NCBI GenBank assembly: GCA_030617815.1
Contig: JAUWUS010000001.1
Coordinates: 1-64,000, forward strand
DNA: 64,000 bases
Source: Gammaproteobacteria bacterium
Lineage (GTDB): Bacteria > Pseudomonadota > Gammaproteobacteria > UBA6429 > Thiohalophilaceae
Direction of reading: 5' to 3'
Positions 1,347-22,259 of this stretch are shown piece by piece (positions within the stretch are counted from its first letter, which is position 1; each line of letters opens with the position of its first letter). The notes beneath the pieces are model-generated. The model did not search any database and was not told the DNA's origin. It saw only the letters and a list, made by a program, of their open reading frames with translations. Position numbers and translations under genes: made by a program.

Positions 1347-1763
1347 ATGTTTAAAAAATATTTAGCGTACGCAATTGCAGGTACAGCAATGGGTTATCTT
1401 CTTGCTCGGATCGGTTTTGCAAATTATGACGAAATAAACAAAATGTTTGTTTTTGCAGATTTAAGAATGTTCTTAAGTTTTGCCGGAGCTGTTGGGATTG
1501 TTATGGTAGCTGCCTTCGCATTAAAAAAACACATTCCACGTCAGGATAAATTTATTCAGCCAGGAACATTGCCAGGTAGTATGTTATTTGGTTTTGGCTG
1601 GGCGGTGACGGGTGCATGCCCAAGTCTTGTTTTTGTTCAGCTAGGGCAGGGAAAAATATCTGCACTAATAACCTTGCTTGGTATTTATCTGGGCGTAGTA
1701 TTCTATCGTAAAATGCATGCAAAATATTTCTTATGGGATGCTGGTTCATGTAACAGTGCATAA
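1347..1763 (+). CDS. YeeE/YedE-family sulfur transporter, C-terminal half protein
   Basis: 138 aa, about four membrane segments. The motif GFGWAVTGACPS contains the single conserved Cys of the second YeeE half. It starts 12 nt after the preceding gene behind GAGG and ends just before a strong terminator, so it closes the Ank-YeeE-YeeE operon. It probably pairs with the upstream protein to make the full channel. Confidence 0.85.
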   Translation: MFKKYLAYAIAGTAMGYLLARIGFANYDEINKMFVFADLRMFLSFAGAVGIVMVAAFALKKHIPRQDKFIQPGTLPGSMLFGFGWAVTGACPSLVFVQLGQGKISALITLLGIYLGVVFYRKMHAKYFLWDAGSCNSA

Positions 1764-1981: not shown

Positions 1982-4900
1982 TTAAGTAGGACTATGTCCT
2001 CTTTCATGGTCAGAACCACGACCAAATAAATGTGCAATATCATGTCCAATAATTAAAAGGGCGGGAGTAAGTATCAAAGTAATTATGGTAGCAAATAATA
2101 ATCCATAGGCCATCGCCATGGTGAGAGGCATGATGAGTCCGTCTTTACCACCAATACCATAAGCCGTTGGCAGAAGACCTGCGACAGTTGTGAAGGTTGT
2201 TAGCAATACCGGGCGAAGCCGATCTTTTGCGGCTGAAACGACAGTACGTACAAGGTTTGATTTATGTTTATCGGTAAGTTCACGATTCACTTCGGTAACC
2301 ATAATAATAGTATCATTCACGACAACACCAATTAATCCCAGTGTTCCCATTGTAGAGAAAAATGATAATGGCATACCGTGTGCGTAAAAAGCCCAGATCA
2401 CTCCAATAATCGCAAAAGGAATAATAGACATAACAATAAAAGATTGACCAAAAGAATTGAGTAATAATGCAACGACAAGATAAATAGAAACCAGTGCGAC
2501 TATACCTGCAGTTAGAAAACCACCAAATATTTTTTGTTGTTCTCTGGCTTCACCCGCAAAGGCAACATTGAGTTTGGGTTGTTTTGACCAGCTTTCTTTA
2601 AAATGTTGTAATACTTTTTTCTTAATAATCGAAGGACTTGTTATTAATGGATTTAAATCAGCACTAATCGTTTCTGTACGTACGCCATTTATGTGTTTGA
2701 ACTCCAGCGGGCCAAGGCCGTGTGTCAGGGATAAAATATCACTCAGGTTCATGACCTGACCGCGATTATTTTTAACCGGGATTTTAAATAACATATTTTC
2801 ATTATTTCGAAATTTTGGAGCAACGATAACCCGGTAGTCAATCGTCTCTTCAACGTTGGTAGTAGAGCTTACCAGCATGCCATCATAAGTTACCCGCAGG
2901 GCATCAGCGACATCTTTAACCTTTAATCCTACTTCAGCCAGTTTTTTATAATCAAGATTAACAATGAGCTGATCTTTACCGGGTTTGTTGTCCGTTTCTA
3001 CATCCAGAACACCGTTTAGGCTTTTAAGAAAATTCAGAATTTCATTGGCGGTATTTTTCCTTAATTTATCATCATTAGTACTGATACGGATTTCTGCAGG
3101 TTTACCGATTGCAGGGCCAACGCGTTTTTTATCAAAGAGAAGGATTTCATTTTTATTGGCTGGAATTGAATTTCGCAACGCAGTAATAATTTCATCAGCT
3201 GTGCGTTCACGATGGGCTTCACCGGTCAGGAATACACTTACGATACCCCAGTGGCTATGTTCCCCACGGTTTTTTGAAGGATCAGTGGAGAGGGTTCCTA
3301 CTCGTGTTGCAAAGGATTCCAGTTCATTTTCAGGTAAACGTTGTATATGTTTTTCAAGTTCTTCAAGACGGTTTTCTGTTGCGGCAAGTGAGGCACCACG
3401 TTGCATTTCAAGTTTTATATAAAATGTTTCAACACCTTCTTGAGGGAAAATTTGAAATTTCATTGTACTTTTAACCAGAAAAATACTGGAAAACAATATC
3501 AGCACCATAACAAGTAAAACGTAATAACGCCGGTGCAGCAATATTTCCAGTAATGCCGCGTAAGCTTTTTCGAGTTTTAAAATCCAGTTAGCTTTATTTT
3601 TGGCCGCCTGTTTATGTTTTTTAGCTGAAGATAAATGATGAGGAAGTAAAAAGAAACATTCAAATAAACTGACCAGTAATGCAATTATCACCACAGCAGG
3701 TATTGCCCAGGCAAATTTTCCGGGCATTCCTCCAATTGAGAACATGGGACTAAAGGCAAGAATAGTTGTAATGCTGGCGACAGTAACAGGGCGCCACATT
3801 GCCGTCACACCTTTTAAGGCAGCGTCTTTTGCCGATAATCCTTTTTCCTGATAGTGGGTAATTTTTTCGGCGACGACAATAGCATCATCGACAAGTAAAC
3901 CCAGCACCAGAACAAAACCGGCAAGTGAAATGGCATTAATGCTGACGCCAAAATAGGGAAGTATAATGAAACTGCCCAGTAGTGAGAAGGGCACACTCAT
4001 CGCTGTCCAGAAAGCAGCATGGCGATTTAGTGCCAGCATAAGAATAATAGTCACCAATGCAAAACCAAGTAGTGCGTTGCCACCTAATACCTGTAAACGT
4101 AAGCGGGTGCGAGCGGACTGGTCATTTGAATAAGAGTAACCAACACCGTTTAATTCGGGCTGATTGGCCATGTACTCTTTTACGCCATTCAATGTTTTAA
4201 TAATGTCCGCATTTTTCTTTTTACGGACAACCAGGTTCATACCGGGTTTGCCTTCATTTCGAACAATAAAATTTTCGTCTTTTTCACGAAGTATAACGCT
4301 TGCTATATCTTTGATCTGTACTACTTGCCCTGAGATATTGGCACGGAGAATAACGTTTTCAACTTCTTTTGGATTATTGAATTTATTTAAACTAATTACC
4401 GTTTGTTCGTTTAGGTAAGATTCTAAAGTACCGCCGGTTGTGCGCAAATTTCGTGATTGAATCGCGACAAGTACTTCAGATAAACTAATGCGTAACTTCC
4501 TGGCTTTAACCGGATCAATTTCAATATGAATTTCACGATCAAAATAGCCAATTTTATCAACACCCGCAACACCCGCTAGTGACTCAATGCCTCGCTCAAA
4601 TACGGGCAGGATTTCACGCAACTTCTCATGTTCGCCAAAGAGATTGATCGAGATAATAGGGGTGTCACTGGTTGAAATAACATCAACTACCGGTAGTTCA
4701 TCTAAATCAATGGGCAAATCTCTGGTCTGATCAACAGCTTGTTTAATATCATTAACAATAATCGTCAAAGCTTTAGCGTTAGCATCTTCATCTGCCTGGA
4801 TAATGATTGCTGAAAAATTTTCTCGTGAGGTTGAGGTGACTTCGTATAAGCCATTAACTTCCTGAATCTCATCTTCAAGTTTTGTGGTGACATTAAGTTC

Positions 4901-5080
4901 AACATCTTCAGCTGATGCACCACGATAAATGGTATTAACAGTGACTTTATTGAGATCAACCGAGGGAAAACCTTCTTTTTGAATGCTAAACATTTGGTTG
5001 AGACCAAATGCAAATACTGACAGGAAGAGAAGCTTTACTAACATAGAGCGTTCAAGGAAAAACAGGATAAGGCTATTCAT
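1982..5080 (-). CDS. RND-family efflux transporter (AcrB/HAE-type)
   Basis: 1032 aa, the usual length for an inner-membrane RND pump. There is one N-terminal membrane helix, a large periplasmic loop, then a helix block whose fourth helix carries the proton-relay pair in VLVLGLLVDDAIVVAEK; the second half repeats the layout. The gene begins 3 nt after the TolC-like gene, so the two are translationally close. The operon contains no periplasmic adaptor (MFP), which such pumps normally need. Substrate unknown; the TetR gene at the operon head suggests induction by a small molecule. Confidence 0.93.
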   Translation of the reverse strand: MNSLILFFLERSMLVKLLFLSVFAFGLNQMFSIQKEGFPSVDLNKVTVNTIYRGASAEDVELNVTTKLEDEIQEVNGLYEVTSTSRENFSAIIIQADEDANAKALTIIVNDIKQAVDQTRDLPIDLDELPVVDVISTSDTPIISINLFGEHEKLREILPVFERGIESLAGVAGVDKIGYFDREIHIEIDPVKARKLRISLSEVLVAIQSRNLRTTGGTLESYLNEQTVISLNKFNNPKEVENVILRANISGQVVQIKDIASVILREKDENFIVRNEGKPGMNLVVRKKKNADIIKTLNGVKEYMANQPELNGVGYSYSNDQSARTRLRLQVLGGNALLGFALVTIILMLALNRHAAFWTAMSVPFSLLGSFIILPYFGVSINAISLAGFVLVLGLLVDDAIVVAEKITHYQEKGLSAKDAALKGVTAMWRPVTVASITTILAFSPMFSIGGMPGKFAWAIPAVVIIALLVSLFECFFLLPHHLSSAKKHKQAAKNKANWILKLEKAYAALLEILLHRRYYVLLVMVLILFSSIFLVKSTMKFQIFPQEGVETFYIKLEMQRGASLAATENRLEELEKHIQRLPENELESFATRVGTLSTDPSKNRGEHSHWGIVSVFLTGEAHRERTADEIITALRNSIPANKNEILLFDKKRVGPAIGKPAEIRISTNDDKLRKNTANEILNFLKSLNGVLDVETDNKPGKDQLIVNLDYKKLAEVGLKVKDVADALRVTYDGMLVSSTTNVEETIDYRVIVAPKFRNNENMLFKIPVKNNRGQVMNLSDILSLTHGLGPLEFKHINGVRTETISADLNPLITSPSIIKKKVLQHFKESWSKQPKLNVAFAGEAREQQKIFGGFLTAGIVALVSIYLVVALLLNSFGQSFIVMSIIPFAIIGVIWAFYAHGMPLSFFSTMGTLGLIGVVVNDTIIMVTEVNRELTDKHKSNLVRTVVSAAKDRLRPVLLTTFTTVAGLLPTAYGIGGKDGLIMPLTMAMAYGLLFATIITLILTPALLIIGHDIAHLFGRGSDHERGHSPT

Positions 5081-5083
5081 GAT

Positions 5084-6607
5084 TTAGTCTTCTCCTGTTG
5101 CCACATTGGTTTTTGAATTTAATATGGCGCTGTAAGTTTCAAGGTTGTGATCAAGTAGCTCACCAATTTTTAATTTAAGAGTCAATTGTTGAGTGTATAG
5201 CTGTTCACGGTTTAATCGACTTTCTAAATGTGAAGTTTGATCTCTTAATAATTCGAATAAGTCCAGTTTACCTATTTTGTATAAGCGTTGTTCTTTTTTA
5301 AGTTTTTGTTGCCCAAGACTGATTTTTCGATCTATTGATTTCAGAGCGATTTTTAATTGTGACGACTGTATTTCAAGATTAGCAAGGTTTGCTTCAGCAT
5401 CAATTAAGCGTTGTTTGCTGTCAGATTCGATTTGTCGTTTTTTTGCAAGTTGTACATTAAAGTTTCCGCTAGCCTGACGATTCCCTAATGGGTACTTATA
5501 TTCAAGCATGACAGAATAATCATCTTTATTTAGACTGGAATCATGGGCGTCACTCAATTCTTTATCAACCCCGTGTCGGGTATAGCCAAAACTTAAATTA
5601 AGATCTGAAGATTTTGAATTATCTTTAGCATCTAACAAAATGACTTGCTGCTCCTTAAGGGCATCAAGAATACTTTTAAGACGCGAAGTGGTCGCTAAAT
5701 AGTTTTTTTCGCGAAGTAAATTTTTATCAGCCGATAATAACTTTGAGTTTTCAGGATTAACAGGTACAGGTTTATTATTCGAGAGAGGCTTATTTGAATT
5801 TGTTTGATATTGTATTTGATATGTTAGTCCGTTAAAACGTCCGCGAGCCTGCTGCCAACGCGAATAATAATCTTCACTGATTTCCAGTGCTCGTAATAAT
5901 TCATATGGTTCAATTACCTGACGTTTGACTTTAGTCCGGGTTAACTTTTCCTGTTCCAGTGATTGTTGATAGACCTCTTTTGAAATTGCAAGCTCGCGTG
6001 CTGACAGATACCAGTCTATATAAAGAGTTGCAAGCTGAGTGATGTAGTTTTCAAGATTTTCCTGACTATTTAAACCGCTAAGTTTAAGGTTAATTTTATT
6101 AAGTTTTATATTAAGTTGGTCCTGTATGCCACCGGAATTTTTTAATAAGGGTTGAGTTAAGCGTAGAGTAAGACTTGGTTGATAATATGTATTACCTAAT
6201 GGGACTAATGCGGGATCCCGATCAGTATATTGATTAGCGTACGCTAAAGATAAACGGGTACCGGTATTAGAAAAGAGACGGTCATATGACAGACTTAAAC
6301 GTGTATCGTCACTGTTATTTGCTTCAAATCCCAGCACCTGATTGGGTTCAGTATGAGAAAGGCTGAGGCTTGAACTTAATACTGCATCATTGATGCCCAG
6401 GCTAGACTCCAGTGTACCGGCTGCAATGTCCTTTTCTGCAAGAATTTTTTGCACGCCGGGATTATTTTTTAGAATAGAACGAACAAAATTATCTAATCCC
6501 AGTTCCTGAGCTGTACTTTGATGACTGTACATAAGCAGCGAAAGACTAACTACAGTATAAAATATTACGTTATAACTATTATGTCGGCCAAAGATTGAAG
6601 TAATCAT
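5084..6607 (-). CDS. TolC-like outer-membrane efflux protein
   Basis: 507 aa with a signal-like hydrophobic N-terminus. It is rich in long amphipathic helices (for example 380-500, with many Leu/Gln/Lys heptads) typical of OEP proteins, and beta segments with SLSLSYDR and LTLRLTQPLL resemble the barrel parts. It would form the outer-membrane duct for the downstream RND pump. It lies 40 nt after the haem c gene on the same strand. Confidence 0.88.
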   Translation of the reverse strand: MITSIFGRHNSYNVIFYTVVSLSLLMYSHQSTAQELGLDNFVRSILKNNPGVQKILAEKDIAAGTLESSLGINDAVLSSSLSLSHTEPNQVLGFEANNSDDTRLSLSYDRLFSNTGTRLSLAYANQYTDRDPALVPLGNTYYQPSLTLRLTQPLLKNSGGIQDQLNIKLNKINLKLSGLNSQENLENYITQLATLYIDWYLSARELAISKEVYQQSLEQEKLTRTKVKRQVIEPYELLRALEISEDYYSRWQQARGRFNGLTYQIQYQTNSNKPLSNNKPVPVNPENSKLLSADKNLLREKNYLATTSRLKSILDALKEQQVILLDAKDNSKSSDLNLSFGYTRHGVDKELSDAHDSSLNKDDYSVMLEYKYPLGNRQASGNFNVQLAKKRQIESDSKQRLIDAEANLANLEIQSSQLKIALKSIDRKISLGQQKLKKEQRLYKIGKLDLFELLRDQTSHLESRLNREQLYTQQLTLKLKIGELLDHNLETYSAILNSKTNVATGED

Positions 6608-6647
6608 GGTTGTTCCTCTGTAATTTTATAACTTTAGAGCATTTGAA

Positions 6648-7121
6648 TTATTTTGTTACATTATTTTGAATTTGATATGTGGAATGACAAGCAACACAGT
6701 TATTCATTAATGTAGATAATTGCTGCAGGGCATGGTTTGGATCACCTAATTGTTCTGCATCTAGTGCCAGTGCATCAAATTTCTTATGTGTATCAAAACC
6801 CAGTTTTTTAAAGGCCAGCGGGAGTTTACCCATTAGCGAGCCTGGTACAGCTTGTTGAGCGGCCAGACCAACCTCACGTGCGGCTTTGACGACGGTTTCC
6901 ATGTCTTCTTCTGTTAGCGCTCGGGTAATTTTTTGTACACTGGAGAGAAACATGCGCATCTCAGTCAGTACTAAATCTCGTTCAGCCGGTTCAAGAATTA
7001 ATGCTTCCCGACCATCAGAAGCCGGTGCAATCGAACCAGCAATCATAAATTTATAGCCCATTGCAACGATAGCAAGGATAAGGATTCCTGTTATTAACCA
7101 ACATAATTTACACGTTTTCAT
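6648..7121 (-). CDS. c-type cytochrome (cytochrome c'/c-556-like), membrane anchored
   Basis: 157 aa. I chose the ATG at 7121 because TTGGAG lies 7 nt upstream; the in-frame TTG at 7133 is part of that site. It has an N-terminal uncleaved-looking helix (residues about 8-25), a helical domain, and one haem site NNCVACHSTYQ near the C-terminus, as in cytochrome c' and c-556. It sits inside an efflux operon between a small membrane protein and TolC, which is unusual. Electron partner unknown. Confidence 0.85.
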   Translation of the reverse strand: MKTCKLCWLITGILILAIVAMGYKFMIAGSIAPASDGREALILEPAERDLVLTEMRMFLSSVQKITRALTEEDMETVVKAAREVGLAAQQAVPGSLMGKLPLAFKKLGFDTHKKFDALALDAEQLGDPNHALQQLSTLMNNCVACHSTYQIQNNVTK

Positions 7122-7189
7122 TTGATACTCCAATTAAAATAATAAAATTTAAAAACCTTAATCATTGTCTGTTATTAATGTTGACAGAT

Positions 7190-7594
7190 TTAAATTGTTG
7201 AATTGTTTTTAGCTGAAAAGTAAGCAACAAAGGCAAAGCTCGTCCAGATAACCGAACGCAAAGTCATTGCTATAACAGTACGCATTTCATAACTGCCATC
7301 CATTAATATATGAATAGCAAAAGCAGCAAATACTAACAGAGTTGCAGTGGCTATTGTAATGGACAATTTTGCAGTCCATTTTTTATTTAGTAAAAATCCT
7401 AAACCTGCCAAAATATAAAAAAAGCCAGCAATGAAATTAAACCAAACAACAAAGTTAAGATAATTTCCTGCTGCCAGACGGGCAGGGCCATCAAAGAAGA
7501 TTACTGCGCCCCCGGATTTAATGGTTAATGCACCAAAGGCAAAAGCAATAAAAATAACAGGCCAGAGCCACAATGGACGATTCTTAATGTTCAT
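7190..7594 (-). CDS. Small four-helix membrane protein
   Basis: 134 aa, four predicted membrane helices, start supported by GAGGTATATGAC. The overall look is like small DoxX-type or DUF membrane proteins, but I do not recognise a defining motif. It follows the TetR gene by 22 nt and precedes the haem c gene, so it is probably under TetR control. Function unknown. Confidence 0.8.
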   Translation of the reverse strand: MNIKNRPLWLWPVIFIAFAFGALTIKSGGAVIFFDGPARLAAGNYLNFVVWFNFIAGFFYILAGLGFLLNKKWTAKLSITIATATLLVFAAFAIHILMDGSYEMRTVIAMTLRSVIWTSFAFVAYFSAKNNSTI

Positions 7595-7616
7595 GTCATA
7601 TACCTCTTAATAACGA

Positions 7617-8207
7617 TCAATGTGCTTTTAAAACGGGTTGCAGGAATTTCCATATAATTTTGGCTTCTTTTTCTAAAGAAAAATTAAATTCATAAACTGA
7701 CCAGCGTAAAACCAGCCCCTGAATAAGTGCTGCTATATATCGAGCAGTTTGATCGACATCAAGATTTTTGTGAAACGCACCACTTTCTTTACCTTGCTGC
7801 AAGAGTTGCGCAACACGTTTGATATATCCATTCATCAGTTCCTGTAGCAATGACTTTAATTTTGGCGATTCAAGATGAAGGAAATCTGAAAATAAAACCC
7901 GCGGAACCGCCCTGTGTTTATTAATAAATGCTAGTTGGCTTTGGATGAGTTTTCGTAGTTGTTCGTCTGCTTCATCTTCAGGATTTACACCTGAAAGAAT
8001 TGCTTTAGATAGATTTTCAGTAATCCAGCCAATTACCGCAGCAAAAATGTCATCTCGTGTTTTAAAATGGCGAAACACCGTTGGCTGCGCAATACCGACT
8101 CGATCAGCAATGGCTTGAGTGGTAACTCGTTTAATACCCAAATCTGCCGTTAGATCCAGAGTGGCCTGAATGATTTCTTTTTTACGCTGTTCTTGTGGTT
8201 TGCCCAT
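7617..8207 (-). CDS. TetR/AcrR-family transcriptional regulator
   Basis: 196 aa. The N-terminal helix-turn-helix is clear (TTQAIADRVGIAQPTVFRHF, residues about 28-47) followed by a variable ligand-binding domain. As the first gene of the leftward operon TetR, membrane protein, cytochrome, TolC, RND it very likely represses its own operon and perhaps the divergent haem c gene. Ligand unknown. Confidence 0.93.
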   Translation of the reverse strand: MGKPQEQRKKEIIQATLDLTADLGIKRVTTQAIADRVGIAQPTVFRHFKTRDDIFAAVIGWITENLSKAILSGVNPEDEADEQLRKLIQSQLAFINKHRAVPRVLFSDFLHLESPKLKSLLQELMNGYIKRVAQLLQQGKESGAFHKNLDVDQTARYIAALIQGLVLRWSVYEFNFSLEKEAKIIWKFLQPVLKAH

Positions 8208-8222
8208 GTTGAGCCCAAAAGT

Positions 8223-8241
8223 GAGTAATCAATTGCTTATT
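8223..8241. promoter_or_regulatory. Possible TetR operator
   Basis: An imperfect dyad centred on CAATTG (TAATCAATTGCTTA) lies 16-34 nt upstream of the tetR start. Placement fits an autoregulatory operator; no binding data. The rest of the 229-nt divergent intergenic space (8208-8436) holds AT-rich promoter-like sequence but no clear -35/-10 pair. Confidence 0.35.
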
Positions 8242-8436
8242 ATCGAGCGAAAGAGCGAGTATTGTCAATGCTGTATAATTGCAGCTTGTTTTCGAGTATT
8301 TTTACAGAAGTAAAAGGACTGTTCTTAAAATAGTGTAACTCATTAATATTTATACTTATTTTAGGTGAGTTCAAGCAATTATGGTATGTTTTAGTTTGTG
8401 TAACATTTTGTGTGAATTGGTATTCAGGAGGAATCG

Positions 8437-8871
8437 ATGATGTTGAATAATATGATTAAATTAGTGTTATTTAGCTGTTTAACCTCAACAAGCCCATTAT
8501 TATTAGCTGATGATGATCCAAGAGTATTGGTCGAATTACCTGAAATGATGCAAAAATATATGATGAGCAATATGCGTGCTCACCTGAAAACAATAAATGA
8601 AATTCTTTTAAGTTTAGCTAATAATAAAATGGATGAGGCGGCTAACCTGGCGGAACAACGGCTCGGTATGACTTCATTAGGTTCTCATGGAGCAGAACAC
8701 ATGGGTAAATTTATGCCAAAGGGGATGCGGCAAGCGGGAACAAACATGCATAAGGCGGCAAGTCGTTTTTCTTTAAAAGCAGAAGAGGGCGAATTATTAC
8801 TTGCATATAAATCGCTTGCTGAAGTAACAGCAACTTGTGTTGCCTGTCATGCGGTGTATCGGATTAAATAA
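8437..8871 (+). CDS. Periplasmic c-type cytochrome (c'/c-556-like)
   Basis: 144 aa. The strong AGGAGG ends 5 nt before ATG 8437 (a second ATG follows at 8440). A signal peptide ends near LLLADDD. The mature part is helical and Met/His-rich, and the single haem site TCVACHAVYRIK is at the very C-terminus, as in the cytochrome encoded in the divergent efflux operon (CVACHSTYQ). The two are probably paralogues read from one regulatory region. Confidence 0.87.
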   Translation: MMLNNMIKLVLFSCLTSTSPLLLADDDPRVLVELPEMMQKYMMSNMRAHLKTINEILLSLANNKMDEAANLAEQRLGMTSLGSHGAEHMGKFMPKGMRQAGTNMHKAASRFSLKAEEGELLLAYKSLAEVTATCVACHAVYRIK

Positions 8872-19217: not shown

Positions 19218-20732
19218 ATGTGTGGAATAATTGGACTTGTTGGCCAGACTTCCGTTAATCAGCAACTTTATGATGGATTAACGGTATTGCAACATCGTGG
19301 TCAGGATGCTGCTGGCATCGTAACTTGTGAAGATGATCGCATGTATCTGCGTAAAGGCAATGGTTTGGTCAGAGATGTTTTTCATACTCGTCACATGATG
19401 ACATTGAAAGGCAATATTGGTATTGGTCATGTGCGTTACCCAACCGCAGGTAGTTTTTCATCTGCTGAGGCGCAGCCTTTTTATGTGAATTCTCCTTATG
19501 GTATTGCTTTGGCACATAATGGAAACTTAACTAATGCTGAAGAATTAAAGCATGATTTATTTGTTCAGGATCGTCGTCATATCAACACTAATTCAGATTC
19601 CGAAATTTTATTAAATATATTTGCCCATGAACTACAGGAAACAGTTAACTCAAAACTTGATATTACAGCAAATAATATTTTTGATGCGATTGAAAATGTG
19701 CATCAACGTTGTAAAGGTGCCTATGCGGTAGTGGCGATGATTACTGGTAGAGGGATCGTAGCTTTTCGTGATCCATATGGCATTCGTCCGGTTGCTTTCG
19801 GTAAACGACAAACAGATAAAGGTATTGAGTATATTGTTGCATCAGAATCAGTTGCTATCGATTCGTTAGGTTTTGAATTGGTTCGGGATCTTGAGCCTGG
19901 AGAAGCTATCTTTATTAATGATGAAGGTGAGTTTTTCTCTCGTCAATGTGCAGACAATCCAAAATTATCCCCCTGTATTTTTGAACATGTGTATTTTGCT
20001 CGTCCAGACTCTATTATTGATGGTGTTTCAGTTTATAAAGCACGCTTACGTATGGGCGATTATTTAGCAAAAACGATTATGAAAGAGTTTCCTGATCATG
20101 ATATTGATGTTGTGCTTCCCATACCGGACACCAGTCGTACTTCTGCTTTGGAGTTATCTTATACTCTGGGTGTAAAGTACAGCGAAGGTTTTATTAAAAA
20201 CCGTTATATCGCTAGAACATTTATTATGCCGGGACAAAAACAACGTAAAAAATCAGTGCGGCAGAAACTTAATGCGATTGAACTGGAATTTAAAGGTAAA
20301 AACGTTTTGCTTGTTGATGATTCTATTGTCCGTGGCACGACATCTTCACAAATTATTCAGATGGCAAGGGATGCCGGTGCCAACAAAGTTTATTTTGCCT
20401 CGGCTGCACCACCGGTACGTTACCCTAATGTCTATGGTATAGATATGCCAGCGGCGGACGAACTTGTTGGACATGATCGTGATGTTGATGCTATTGCAAA
20501 AGAAATTGGTGCCGATAAACTGTTTTATCAGAAGCTGGACGACTTGATTGAAGCCGTGCGTAAAAAAGCACCTAAAATAAAAGAGTTTGATACTTCTGTT
20601 TTTAGTGGTGAATATGTTACAGGTGATATTGATCAGAAATATTTACAACACATTGAATCATTAAGAAATGATGCCAGTAGAGTAGATAATGATACTGATA
20701 ATGAAGTTATTGAAATTCATAATAATGCTTAA
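19218..20732 (+). CDS. purF: Amidophosphoribosyltransferase
   Basis: 504 aa. After Met removal Cys2 of MCGIIGLVG is the glutaminase nucleophile; no propeptide is present. [11 protein letters not shown] and HVRYPTAG follow. The PRPP-binding loop is [17 protein letters not shown]. First committed step of purine synthesis. Confidence 0.97.
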
Positions 20733-20769: not shown

Positions 20770-20798
20770 TTGACATTTTATTCATCATCAACTAATCT
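20770..20798 (+). promoter_or_regulatory. Sigma-70 promoter of metZ leader
   Basis: TTGACA (20770-20775) and TAATCT (20793-20798) with an exact 17-nt spacer. The expected start near 20805 is a few bases before the riboswitch aptamer. Confidence 0.75.
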
Positions 20799-20810
20799 CA
20801 TTAACGTAAT

Positions 20811-20861
20811 AAGCGCCGATTTGATATCAGCTTGCGGGCGCATTAAAAATACAGCTAAAGT
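20811..20861 (+). ncRNA. SAM-II-type riboswitch aptamer
   Basis: P1 pairs GCGCC (20813-20817) with GGCGC (20837-20841). The loop contains GATTTGATATCAGCTTGC, then an A-rich linker CATTAAAAAT, then ACAGCTAAAG. This order (GATTT in the P1 loop, TTGC before P1', TAAA linker, AGCTAAA pseudoknot strand) matches the remembered SAM-II metX aptamer. AGCT of the loop can pair with AGCT at 20853-20856 to form the pseudoknot. It lies 120 nt before metZ, a methionine gene. SAM-II is mostly known from alphaproteobacteria. Confidence 0.75.
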
Positions 20862-20865
20862 GAGG

Positions 20866-20895
20866 AAGCCTGCTTTAGTTGATGCGGGTTTTTTT
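20866..20895 (+). terminator. Riboswitch-controlled terminator
   Basis: The stem CCTGC / GCGGG (extendable by AAG/TTT) is followed by seven T. Its loop side contains CTTTAG (20873-20878), complementary to CTAAAG of the aptamer pseudoknot strand (20855-20860) and again to CTAAAG at 20912-20917, so aptamer folding and termination can be mutually linked. Confidence 0.65.
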
Positions 20896-20983
20896 GTGCC
20901 TGAATTAAACTACTAAAGCGGCGCTGACGTCATTATTAGCTTCATTCATTAAGTAAGTTAAATTGATTATTTTGGAGAACGAG

Positions 20984-22162
20984 ATGTTTGATTTTGATGA
21001 AACATGGGCACTGGAAACCTTAGCGGTAAGAGCAGGGCAAGTGCGTACTGCTGAAGGTGAACATAGTGAACCTATTTTTCCTACCTCAAGTTATGTTTTT
21101 CCCAGTGCGGCCGAAGCGGCGGCACGTTTTAAAGGTGAAAGTCAGGGGAATATTTATTCGCGTTTTACTAATCCTACGGTTCGTACCTTTGAACAACGTT
21201 TAGCTGCTTTAGAGGGTGGAGATAGTTGTGTTGCCACATCATCTGGCATGTCTGCAATTTTAAGTACCTGCATCGCGTTGTTGAAAGCGGGTGATCATAT
21301 TGTTTCATCCCGCTCAATTTTTGGCACGACTGTTGTTCTTTTTAATAAGTACTTACAACCATTTGGTGTTGATACGACTTTTGTTGCTATAACAGATCTG
21401 GATGCATGGAAAAAGGCTATTCGACCGGAAACTAAAATATTGTTTTTAGAAACACCTTCGAATCCATTAACAGAAGTTGCAGATTTAAAAGCACTTGCTG
21501 ATTTAGCACATGAAAATGATTGTTTGCTGGTTGTTGATAATTGTTTATGTACGCCTATATTGCAACAACCATTAAAGCTCGGTGCAGATATTGTTATCCA
21601 TTCAGCAACGAAATACATTGATGGCCAGGGGCGTGCTATTGGTGGTGCGGTTGTGGGGAATAAAGAATTAGTCGGTGAAACAGTATTTGGGTTTTTACGC
21701 ACAGCGGGTCCAAGCTTAAGTCCATTTAATGCATGGATATTTTTAAAAGGTTTAGAAACATTGCCTCTTAGAATGAAAGCGCACAGCGCCAATGCACTGG
21801 AGTTAGCTCAATTTCTCGAACAACATAAAAATGTTAATCAGGTTCATTATTCTGGATTGGCGTCGCATCCTCAATATGATTTAGCCAGTCAGCAACAGTT
21901 TGCAGGCAGTGGTGTTTTATCTTTTGAAGTGAAAGGCGGTAAAGAAGCTGCCTGGAAACTGATTGATTCAACTCGATTGTTATCGATTACCGCAAATTTA
22001 GGTGATACAAAATCTACAATTACTCATCCTGCAACAACGACACATGGACGTTTGTCGGACGAAGAACGTCAGCAATCAGGGATTAGTGATGGTTTAATTC
22101 GTATTTCAGTTGGTTTGGAATCAATTGATGATATTAAAGCTGATATCGAAAGAGGGTTGTAA
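20984..22162 (+). CDS. metZ: O-succinylhomoserine sulfhydrylase
   Basis: 392 aa from ATG 20984 with TTTGGAGAAC upstream; a longer reading from 20963 is less likely. Cys/Met metabolism PLP enzyme: YSRFTNPTV, SGMSAILSTCIALL, and PLP lysine in VIHSATKYIDGQGR. It makes homocysteine directly from O-succinylhomoserine and sulfide. Position after purF is conserved in pseudomonads; here it is under a SAM riboswitch. Confidence 0.92.
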   Translation: MFDFDETWALETLAVRAGQVRTAEGEHSEPIFPTSSYVFPSAAEAAARFKGESQGNIYSRFTNPTVRTFEQRLAALEGGDSCVATSSGMSAILSTCIALLKAGDHIVSSRSIFGTTVVLFNKYLQPFGVDTTFVAITDLDAWKKAIRPETKILFLETPSNPLTEVADLKALADLAHENDCLLVVDNCLCTPILQQPLKLGADIVIHSATKYIDGQGRAIGGAVVGNKELVGETVFGFLRTAGPSLSPFNAWIFLKGLETLPLRMKAHSANALELAQFLEQHKNVNQVHYSGLASHPQYDLASQQQFAGSGVLSFEVKGGKEAAWKLIDSTRLLSITANLGDTKSTITHPATTTHGRLSDEERQQSGISDGLIRISVGLESIDDIKADIERGL

Positions 22163-22173
22163 GAAAAAAACTG

Positions 22174-22245
22174 AACCACGGAGGGCACAGAGGTACGCAG
22201 AGTTAACTTAATATTTTCTTTGTGGCTCCCTGTGTCCTCCGTGGT
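22174..22245. repeat. Dispersed inverted repeat (ACCACRGAG family), copy 1
   Basis: Ends ACCACGGAG and CTCCGTGGT are inverted; inside are GGCACAGAGG and CCTGTGTCC, also inverted. The same family occurs at 38783-38898. It fills the space between metZ and rluA (converging) and could fold into a long hairpin. Confidence 0.8.
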
Positions 22246-22259
22246 AAATTGTTTTTAAT

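Follow-up and report, generated by a model that had tools for sequence, protein, structure and literature searches.

The metZ leader is the intergenic region between purF (bp 19218–20732) and metZ (bp 20984–22162) of the window, i.e., the whole 64,000-nt stretch of gammaproteobacterial DNA that was analysed. From purF to metZ, the order of elements is promoter, SAM-II aptamer, intrinsic terminator, and metZ ribosome-binding site, all on the plus strand. Starting with the ATG at bp 20984, metZ encodes an O-succinylhomoserine sulfhydrylase of 392 aa, the product scoring above the cut-offs of two NCBIfam equivalog models, NF006003 (695 bits) and TIGR01325 (579 bits). The Shine-Dalgarno sequence of metZ, GGAG, is at bp 20974–20977. 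An inverted repeat 3′ of metZ, ACCACGGAGGGCACAGAGG ... CCCTGTGTCCTCCGTGGT (bp 22173–22250), resembles a dispersed repeat, and a similar CACAGAGG run is found in locus L063.

The promoter is of the sigma-70 type, with TTGACA at bp 20770–20775 and TAATCT at bp 20793–20798, separated by the 17-nt spacer given in the preliminary description. The same promoter or close variants of it recur upstream of the aptamers of relatives. Transcription is expected to start at about bp 20804–20806, some 10 nt 5′ of the P1 stem. A generic promoter and terminator scan of the window reported neither the leader promoter nor the leader terminator. The rules of the scan demand at least four of six matches in the −10 box and a loop of at most 8 nt; both features were missed because the −10 box has three of six matches and the terminator loop is 10 nt long. 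Yet both are conserved in relatives.

The aptamer occupies bp 20813–20865. The Rfam SAM-II covariance model, RF00521 (SAM_alpha), matches bp 20803–20879 over its full length. The score is 35.9 bits, with E-values of 1.1e-6 when the leader is searched and 1.7e-6 genome-wide. The gathering score is 36.0 bits; that is, the aptamer is 0.1 bit under it and is therefore missed by a default Rfam scan, which reported only a tRNA in the window. Once an E-value threshold is used, RF00521 is the top match in the metZ leader. Genome-wide, the window aptamer is the second best SAM-II match, the best scoring 39.1 bits and the next 17 bits, and control genomes gave no RF00521 match at E ≤ 0.01. The full-length match, its score, its low E-value, and the blank controls show that the match is not due to chance. 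SAM-V, a class with an overall pseudoknot and SAM contacts similar to those of SAM-II, was also raised in the preliminary description. It was not among the matches listed for the leader at E ≤ 10, and a SAM-V identity was rejected. A different Rfam family, RF02424 (Bp2_287, a Burkholderia sRNA), consistently hits the complement of SAM-II: on the minus strand at bp 20812–20925 of the window, at bp 4854–4992 of locus L009, and also in L159 and L177. The family seems to represent the antisense strand of a SAM-II leader from Betaproteobacteria. As a separate RNA in the window it was rejected, since the match falls far short of the RF02424 cut-off and can be read as SAM-II antisense.

Each part of the aptamer that the preliminary description named is where it had been put. 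P1 is a 5 bp stem, GCGCC (bp 20813–20817) with GGCGC (bp 20837–20841), closing the loop GATTTGATATCAGCTTGCG, and it is invariant in 41 metZ leaders; in the metK leaders L146, L160, and L163, a compensatory change replaces a C-G pair with U-A. The core motifs are GATTT (bp 20818–20822), TTGC (bp 20832–20835), and CAGCTAAAG (bp 20852–20860). The conserved core of GAUUU, UUGC, and GCUAAAG is thus complete in the window, and it is invariant in relatives. The 3′ strand, CAGCTAAAGTGAGG (bp 20852–20865), is the SAM-binding and P2 strand; its first 11 nt double as the 5′ half of an antiterminator by pairing with bp 20871–20881. The P2 pseudoknot, assigned by eye, has 3 bp, UCA (bp 20827–20829) with UGA (bp 20861–20863), and is nearly invariant in the set, without covariation. 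Compared with RF00521, the metA motif, the window element is alike in its core, in its single P1 stem plus 3′ strand, in the promoter just upstream of P1, in the putative terminator after P2, and in the target pathway. It differs in being gammaproteobacterial, in its short P2, in its score just below the cut-off, and in a fixed GCGCC/GGCGC P1 where the model has CCGUGG/CCACG.

The intrinsic terminator lies at bp 20866–20895, as the preliminary description had it, and is conserved in relatives. Its arms, AAGCCTGC (bp 20866–20873) and GCGGGTTT (bp 20884–20891), enclose a loop of 10 nt and run into a U-run (T7, bp 20889–20895); the predicted stability is −9.3 kcal/mol. In the 41 metZ leaders, 95.1% of terminator stem cells are paired, versus at most 58% when the arms are slid by 1–3 columns. 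The sequence RTGCCYG directly follows the U-run in most metZ leaders (bp 20896–20902 in the window) and is absent in metK leaders. It could pair with the GCGGG of the terminator 3′ arm in read-through RNA.

A pairing between CTTTAG of the terminator (bp 20873–20878) and CTAAAG of the aptamer (bp 20855–20860) had been proposed over 6 bp. It holds, and it extends to 11 contiguous pairs, three of them G-U, between the aptamer strand CAGCUAAAGUG (bp 20852–20862) and UGCUUUAGUUG (bp 20871–20881), the latter formed by parts of the terminator 5′ arm and loop. Shuffling the terminator yields about 7 pairs, and none of 100 shuffles reached 11. This antiterminator hairpin cannot coexist with the SAM-bound pseudoknot or with the terminator. 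In the 41 metZ leaders, 83.3% of its cells are paired, versus at most 44% after sliding by 1–3 columns, and it is kept through a U-G pair in the eleven leaders that have G for A in CTTTAG. No compensatory changes beyond chance were seen for it in these 41 leaders, as would be expected if the aptamer and its ligand pocket fix one strand and the terminator fixes the other. Covariation as proof of the antiterminator was therefore not obtained.

Folding of bp 20852–20895 gives the antiterminator, with a minimum free energy of −13.3. For the free window RNA, the computed probabilities of the terminator and the antiterminator are 0.50 and 0.48, respectively, and blocking the aptamer strand at bp 20852–20862, as SAM binding would, raises that of the terminator to 0.95. 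This balance fits the window RNA but is not general. At equilibrium without SAM, the terminator is favoured in many relatives and in all metK leaders, the latter forming it in both states. Equilibrium folding was thus set aside as proof of switching, and it follows that switching must rest on the order of folding. The last base of the antiterminator, bp 20881, is transcribed before the terminator 3′ arm, so folding order is predicted to favour read-through when SAM is absent.

It is very probable that the leader is a SAM-II riboswitch that controls metZ transcription, and with it homocysteine synthesis, with OFF logic via the terminator. At low SAM, bp 20852–20862 would pair with bp 20871–20881 immediately on synthesis, before the terminator 3′ arm (bp 20884–20891) is made. 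The antiterminator would trap the terminator 5′ arm, and RNA polymerase would read into metZ. At high SAM, the ligand would fix CAGCUAAAGUGAGG in the pseudoknot, the terminator would fold, and transcription would end with the release of a roughly 90-nt leader RNA. The preliminary description had sketched the same arrangement of SAM-II aptamer, SAM-favoured terminator, antiterminator, and metZ target, and it is supported by the covariance model, by pairing conservation in the 41 leaders, and by folding. Computation establishes the aptamer match, the mutually exclusive pairings, their conservation, and the target gene; SAM is the presumptive ligand, and SAM-dependent termination is the predicted outcome. 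Counted against the riboswitch reading are the score 0.1 bit under the cut-off, the short and nearly invariant P2, the antiterminator without compensatory change, and the terminator that is favoured without SAM in many relatives.

The standard model for the metX SAM-II structure is direct occlusion of the ribosome-binding site; applied here, the pseudoknot would block metZ translation, and the hairpin would be incidental. SAM-II elements without a terminator do precede metY-like genes at three loci (L139, L141, and L143), where the start codon is close downstream of the aptamer; these are probably translational versions. In the window, the metZ Shine-Dalgarno sequence is about 110 nt past the aptamer and 80 nt past a conserved terminator, and the RNA from the terminator into metZ (bp 20896–21010) is no more stably folded than shuffled sequence (z = −0.12); sequestration of the site by structure 3′ of the terminator was rejected on this basis. 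We consider translational control of metZ here to be improbable.

A further copy of CTAAAG, at bp 20913–20918, had been offered as an alternative partner for the terminator. It lies in a stretch, CTAAAGCGGCGCTGACGTCATTAT (bp 20912–20935), that contains the palindrome TGACGTCA and has variants in same-genus metZ leaders only. Among these leaders, L032 has GCCAGC in place of CTAAAG, L050 and L054 have GACGC or AACGC in place of the GGCGC that follows it, and L044 lacks the entire stretch. The copy was thus rejected as a switch element in favour of a lineage-specific feature. The stretch is possibly a protein-binding site.

To return to the SAM-II switch, its relatives are many. Within the family, 35 of 37 genomes have one or two SAM-II matches, and the gathering score is passed in 16 of the 58 genomes searched. 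Across the class sample, 120 of 370 genomes have an RF00521 match at E ≤ 1e-3, and only 35 exceed Rfam's cut-off; thus, standard annotation misses most. Among 40 sub-threshold matches (31–36 bits) sampled from across the class, all but one, the misfit L193, have the GATTT/TTGC/GCTAA core. Nearly all precede a methionine-pathway gene, mostly metZ, with metK, metF, and a methionine-transporter-like ATPase as other targets, and the T-run is in place in 32. Since such matches keep the core and precede methionine genes, the score under the cut-off most likely reflects an alphaproteobacterial bias of the model and not a poor aptamer.

All fetched loci together gave 124 distinct leaders, one further candidate (L114) having been left out as a regex false positive. 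Targets were assigned to at least 113 of these (87 metZ, 21 metK, 4 metF, and 1 metN); the script assigned none to the other 11, of which several, e.g., L012 and L152, precede metZ on inspection. A terminator is present in 103 of the 124, and in 86 of those 103 the aptamer strand and the terminator are complementary over at least 7 bp, the mean being 8.6 versus 5.4 for shuffled sequences. These data bear on the proposal that metZ is preceded by a constitutive terminator, or by a small-RNA locus, whose aptamer has decayed. Such decay would agree with the short P2, with the score just below the cut-off, and with terminators that are stable alone at equilibrium in many relatives. It would not be expected to leave the core invariant across 41 diverse metZ leaders or to maintain the complementarity of aptamer strand and terminator, and we regard it as very unlikely.

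Several single loci stand out. Genome G254 has five SAM-II matches; at its locus L148 (bp 1440–1575, minus strand), a degenerate second aptamer lies 3′ of the terminator, and none of the genes downstream was recognised as a methionine gene. The SAM-II of L159 also appears to be tandem. Among surveyed tandem riboswitches, SAM-II doublets with terminators are on record (PMC9481103). In the Nitrosomonadales, L121 (bp 1803–1880) has a SAM-II before metZ that is above threshold at 37.7 bits.

The best match in the window's own genome is a second SAM-II, on contig C116 (locus L009), which passes the gathering score at 39.1 bits and precedes metK. The order at bp 4880–8755 of this locus is SAM-II, metK, SAH riboswitch, ahcY, metF. 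The SAH riboswitch (bp 6302–6385) scores 55.6 bits, above its cut-off, so this cluster of SAM-cycle genes has two RNA sensors, one for SAM and one for SAH.

The terminator 5′ arm of most metK leaders consists of CCGCUUUAG plus two more bases and can pair with the aptamer's GGCUAAAGCGG over 10–11 bp; alternatively, it pairs with a repeat of the aptamer strand, GCUAAAGCGG, which is the terminator 3′ arm. Six of 15 metK leaders have another sequence there (L022, L040, L046, L146, L160, and L163). The metK terminators covary strongly, with 19 cells changed on both sides versus 6.4 in shuffles and a covariation score of 0.318 versus 0.150. We found no description of SAM-II before metK in those parts of the open-access literature that were consulted, a weak negative.

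These targets also speak to the ligand. A ligand cannot be read from sequence alone, and there are SAM riboswitch variants with other ligands, e.g., a spermidine variant class (PMC10853860); the leader could thus be a SAM-II-like pseudoknot for SAH or a related metabolite. Its core nucleotides, however, agree with the SAM_alpha consensus, the targets metZ, metK, metF, and metN are those expected for SAM feedback, and the same genome has a separate SAH riboswitch before ahcY. A ligand other than SAM is, we believe, highly improbable.

The preliminary description took SAM-II to act usually on translation and a gammaproteobacterial transcriptional version to be a novelty. Neither stands. In a genome survey, SAM-II is the aptamer most often tied to regulatory terminators in α- and β-Proteobacteria, and it is reported in γ-Proteobacteria as well (PMC2258182). 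The translational view reflects the metX structure literature (PMC10907184), not genome surveys. Corbino et al. (2005) described SAM-II as the metA motif, with putative terminators after P2 in "many representatives" (PMC1273637), and terminator-type metZ switches have been published.

In Sinorhizobium meliloti, SAM is predicted to favour the terminator of the metZ SAM-II, and a leader RNA of about 100 nt (RZ) is seen on Northern blots and accumulates under high SAM (PMC9373788). The S. meliloti switch is like the predicted window switch in its SAM-II before metZ, its SAM-favoured terminator, and its released leader RNA; S. meliloti is an Alphaproteobacterium with some in vivo data, whereas the window switch is known from computation alone. 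In Gluconobacter oxydans, RNA-seq coverage of the SAM-II leader before the O-succinylhomoserine sulfhydrylase gene is 20-fold above that of the ORF, and a terminator and antiterminator are predicted (PMC5756330); the gene controlled is the same, in another Alphaproteobacterium. For β-Proteobacteria, an element with a pseudoknot and a terminator/antiterminator before metX or metZ was reported as new (Leyn et al. 2014, PMC4239095). As described, the metXZ element is like the window leader and may be a divergent SAM-II.

SAM-II with terminators, including before metZ, is thus already known. What is new here, modestly, is the wide spread of sub-threshold SAM-II in Gammaproteobacteria, metK included. 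No MetJ was found in the window's genome, which is about 93% complete; thus, SAM feedback in this organism may rest on RNA. We think it likely that SAM-II with terminator platforms plays a major and mostly unannotated part in regulating the SAM cycle as a whole (metZ, metK, metF, and metN) across Gammaproteobacteria as broadly defined by GTDB, most members being below Rfam's cut-off, that it takes the place of MetJ in the window's lineage, and that the metK terminator 3′ arm copies the SAM-binding strand.

The effects of SAM-II on gene expression are far less studied than its binding mechanism (PMC9373788), and the poised terminator/antiterminator pair of the window is a small, convenient system in which to test how SAM-II controls transcription. 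Alone, the window element is ordinary. Together with its relatives, it shows SAM-II to be a common regulator outside the Alphaproteobacteria and points to a methionine regulon of MetJ-less gammaproteobacteria that standard annotation has overlooked.
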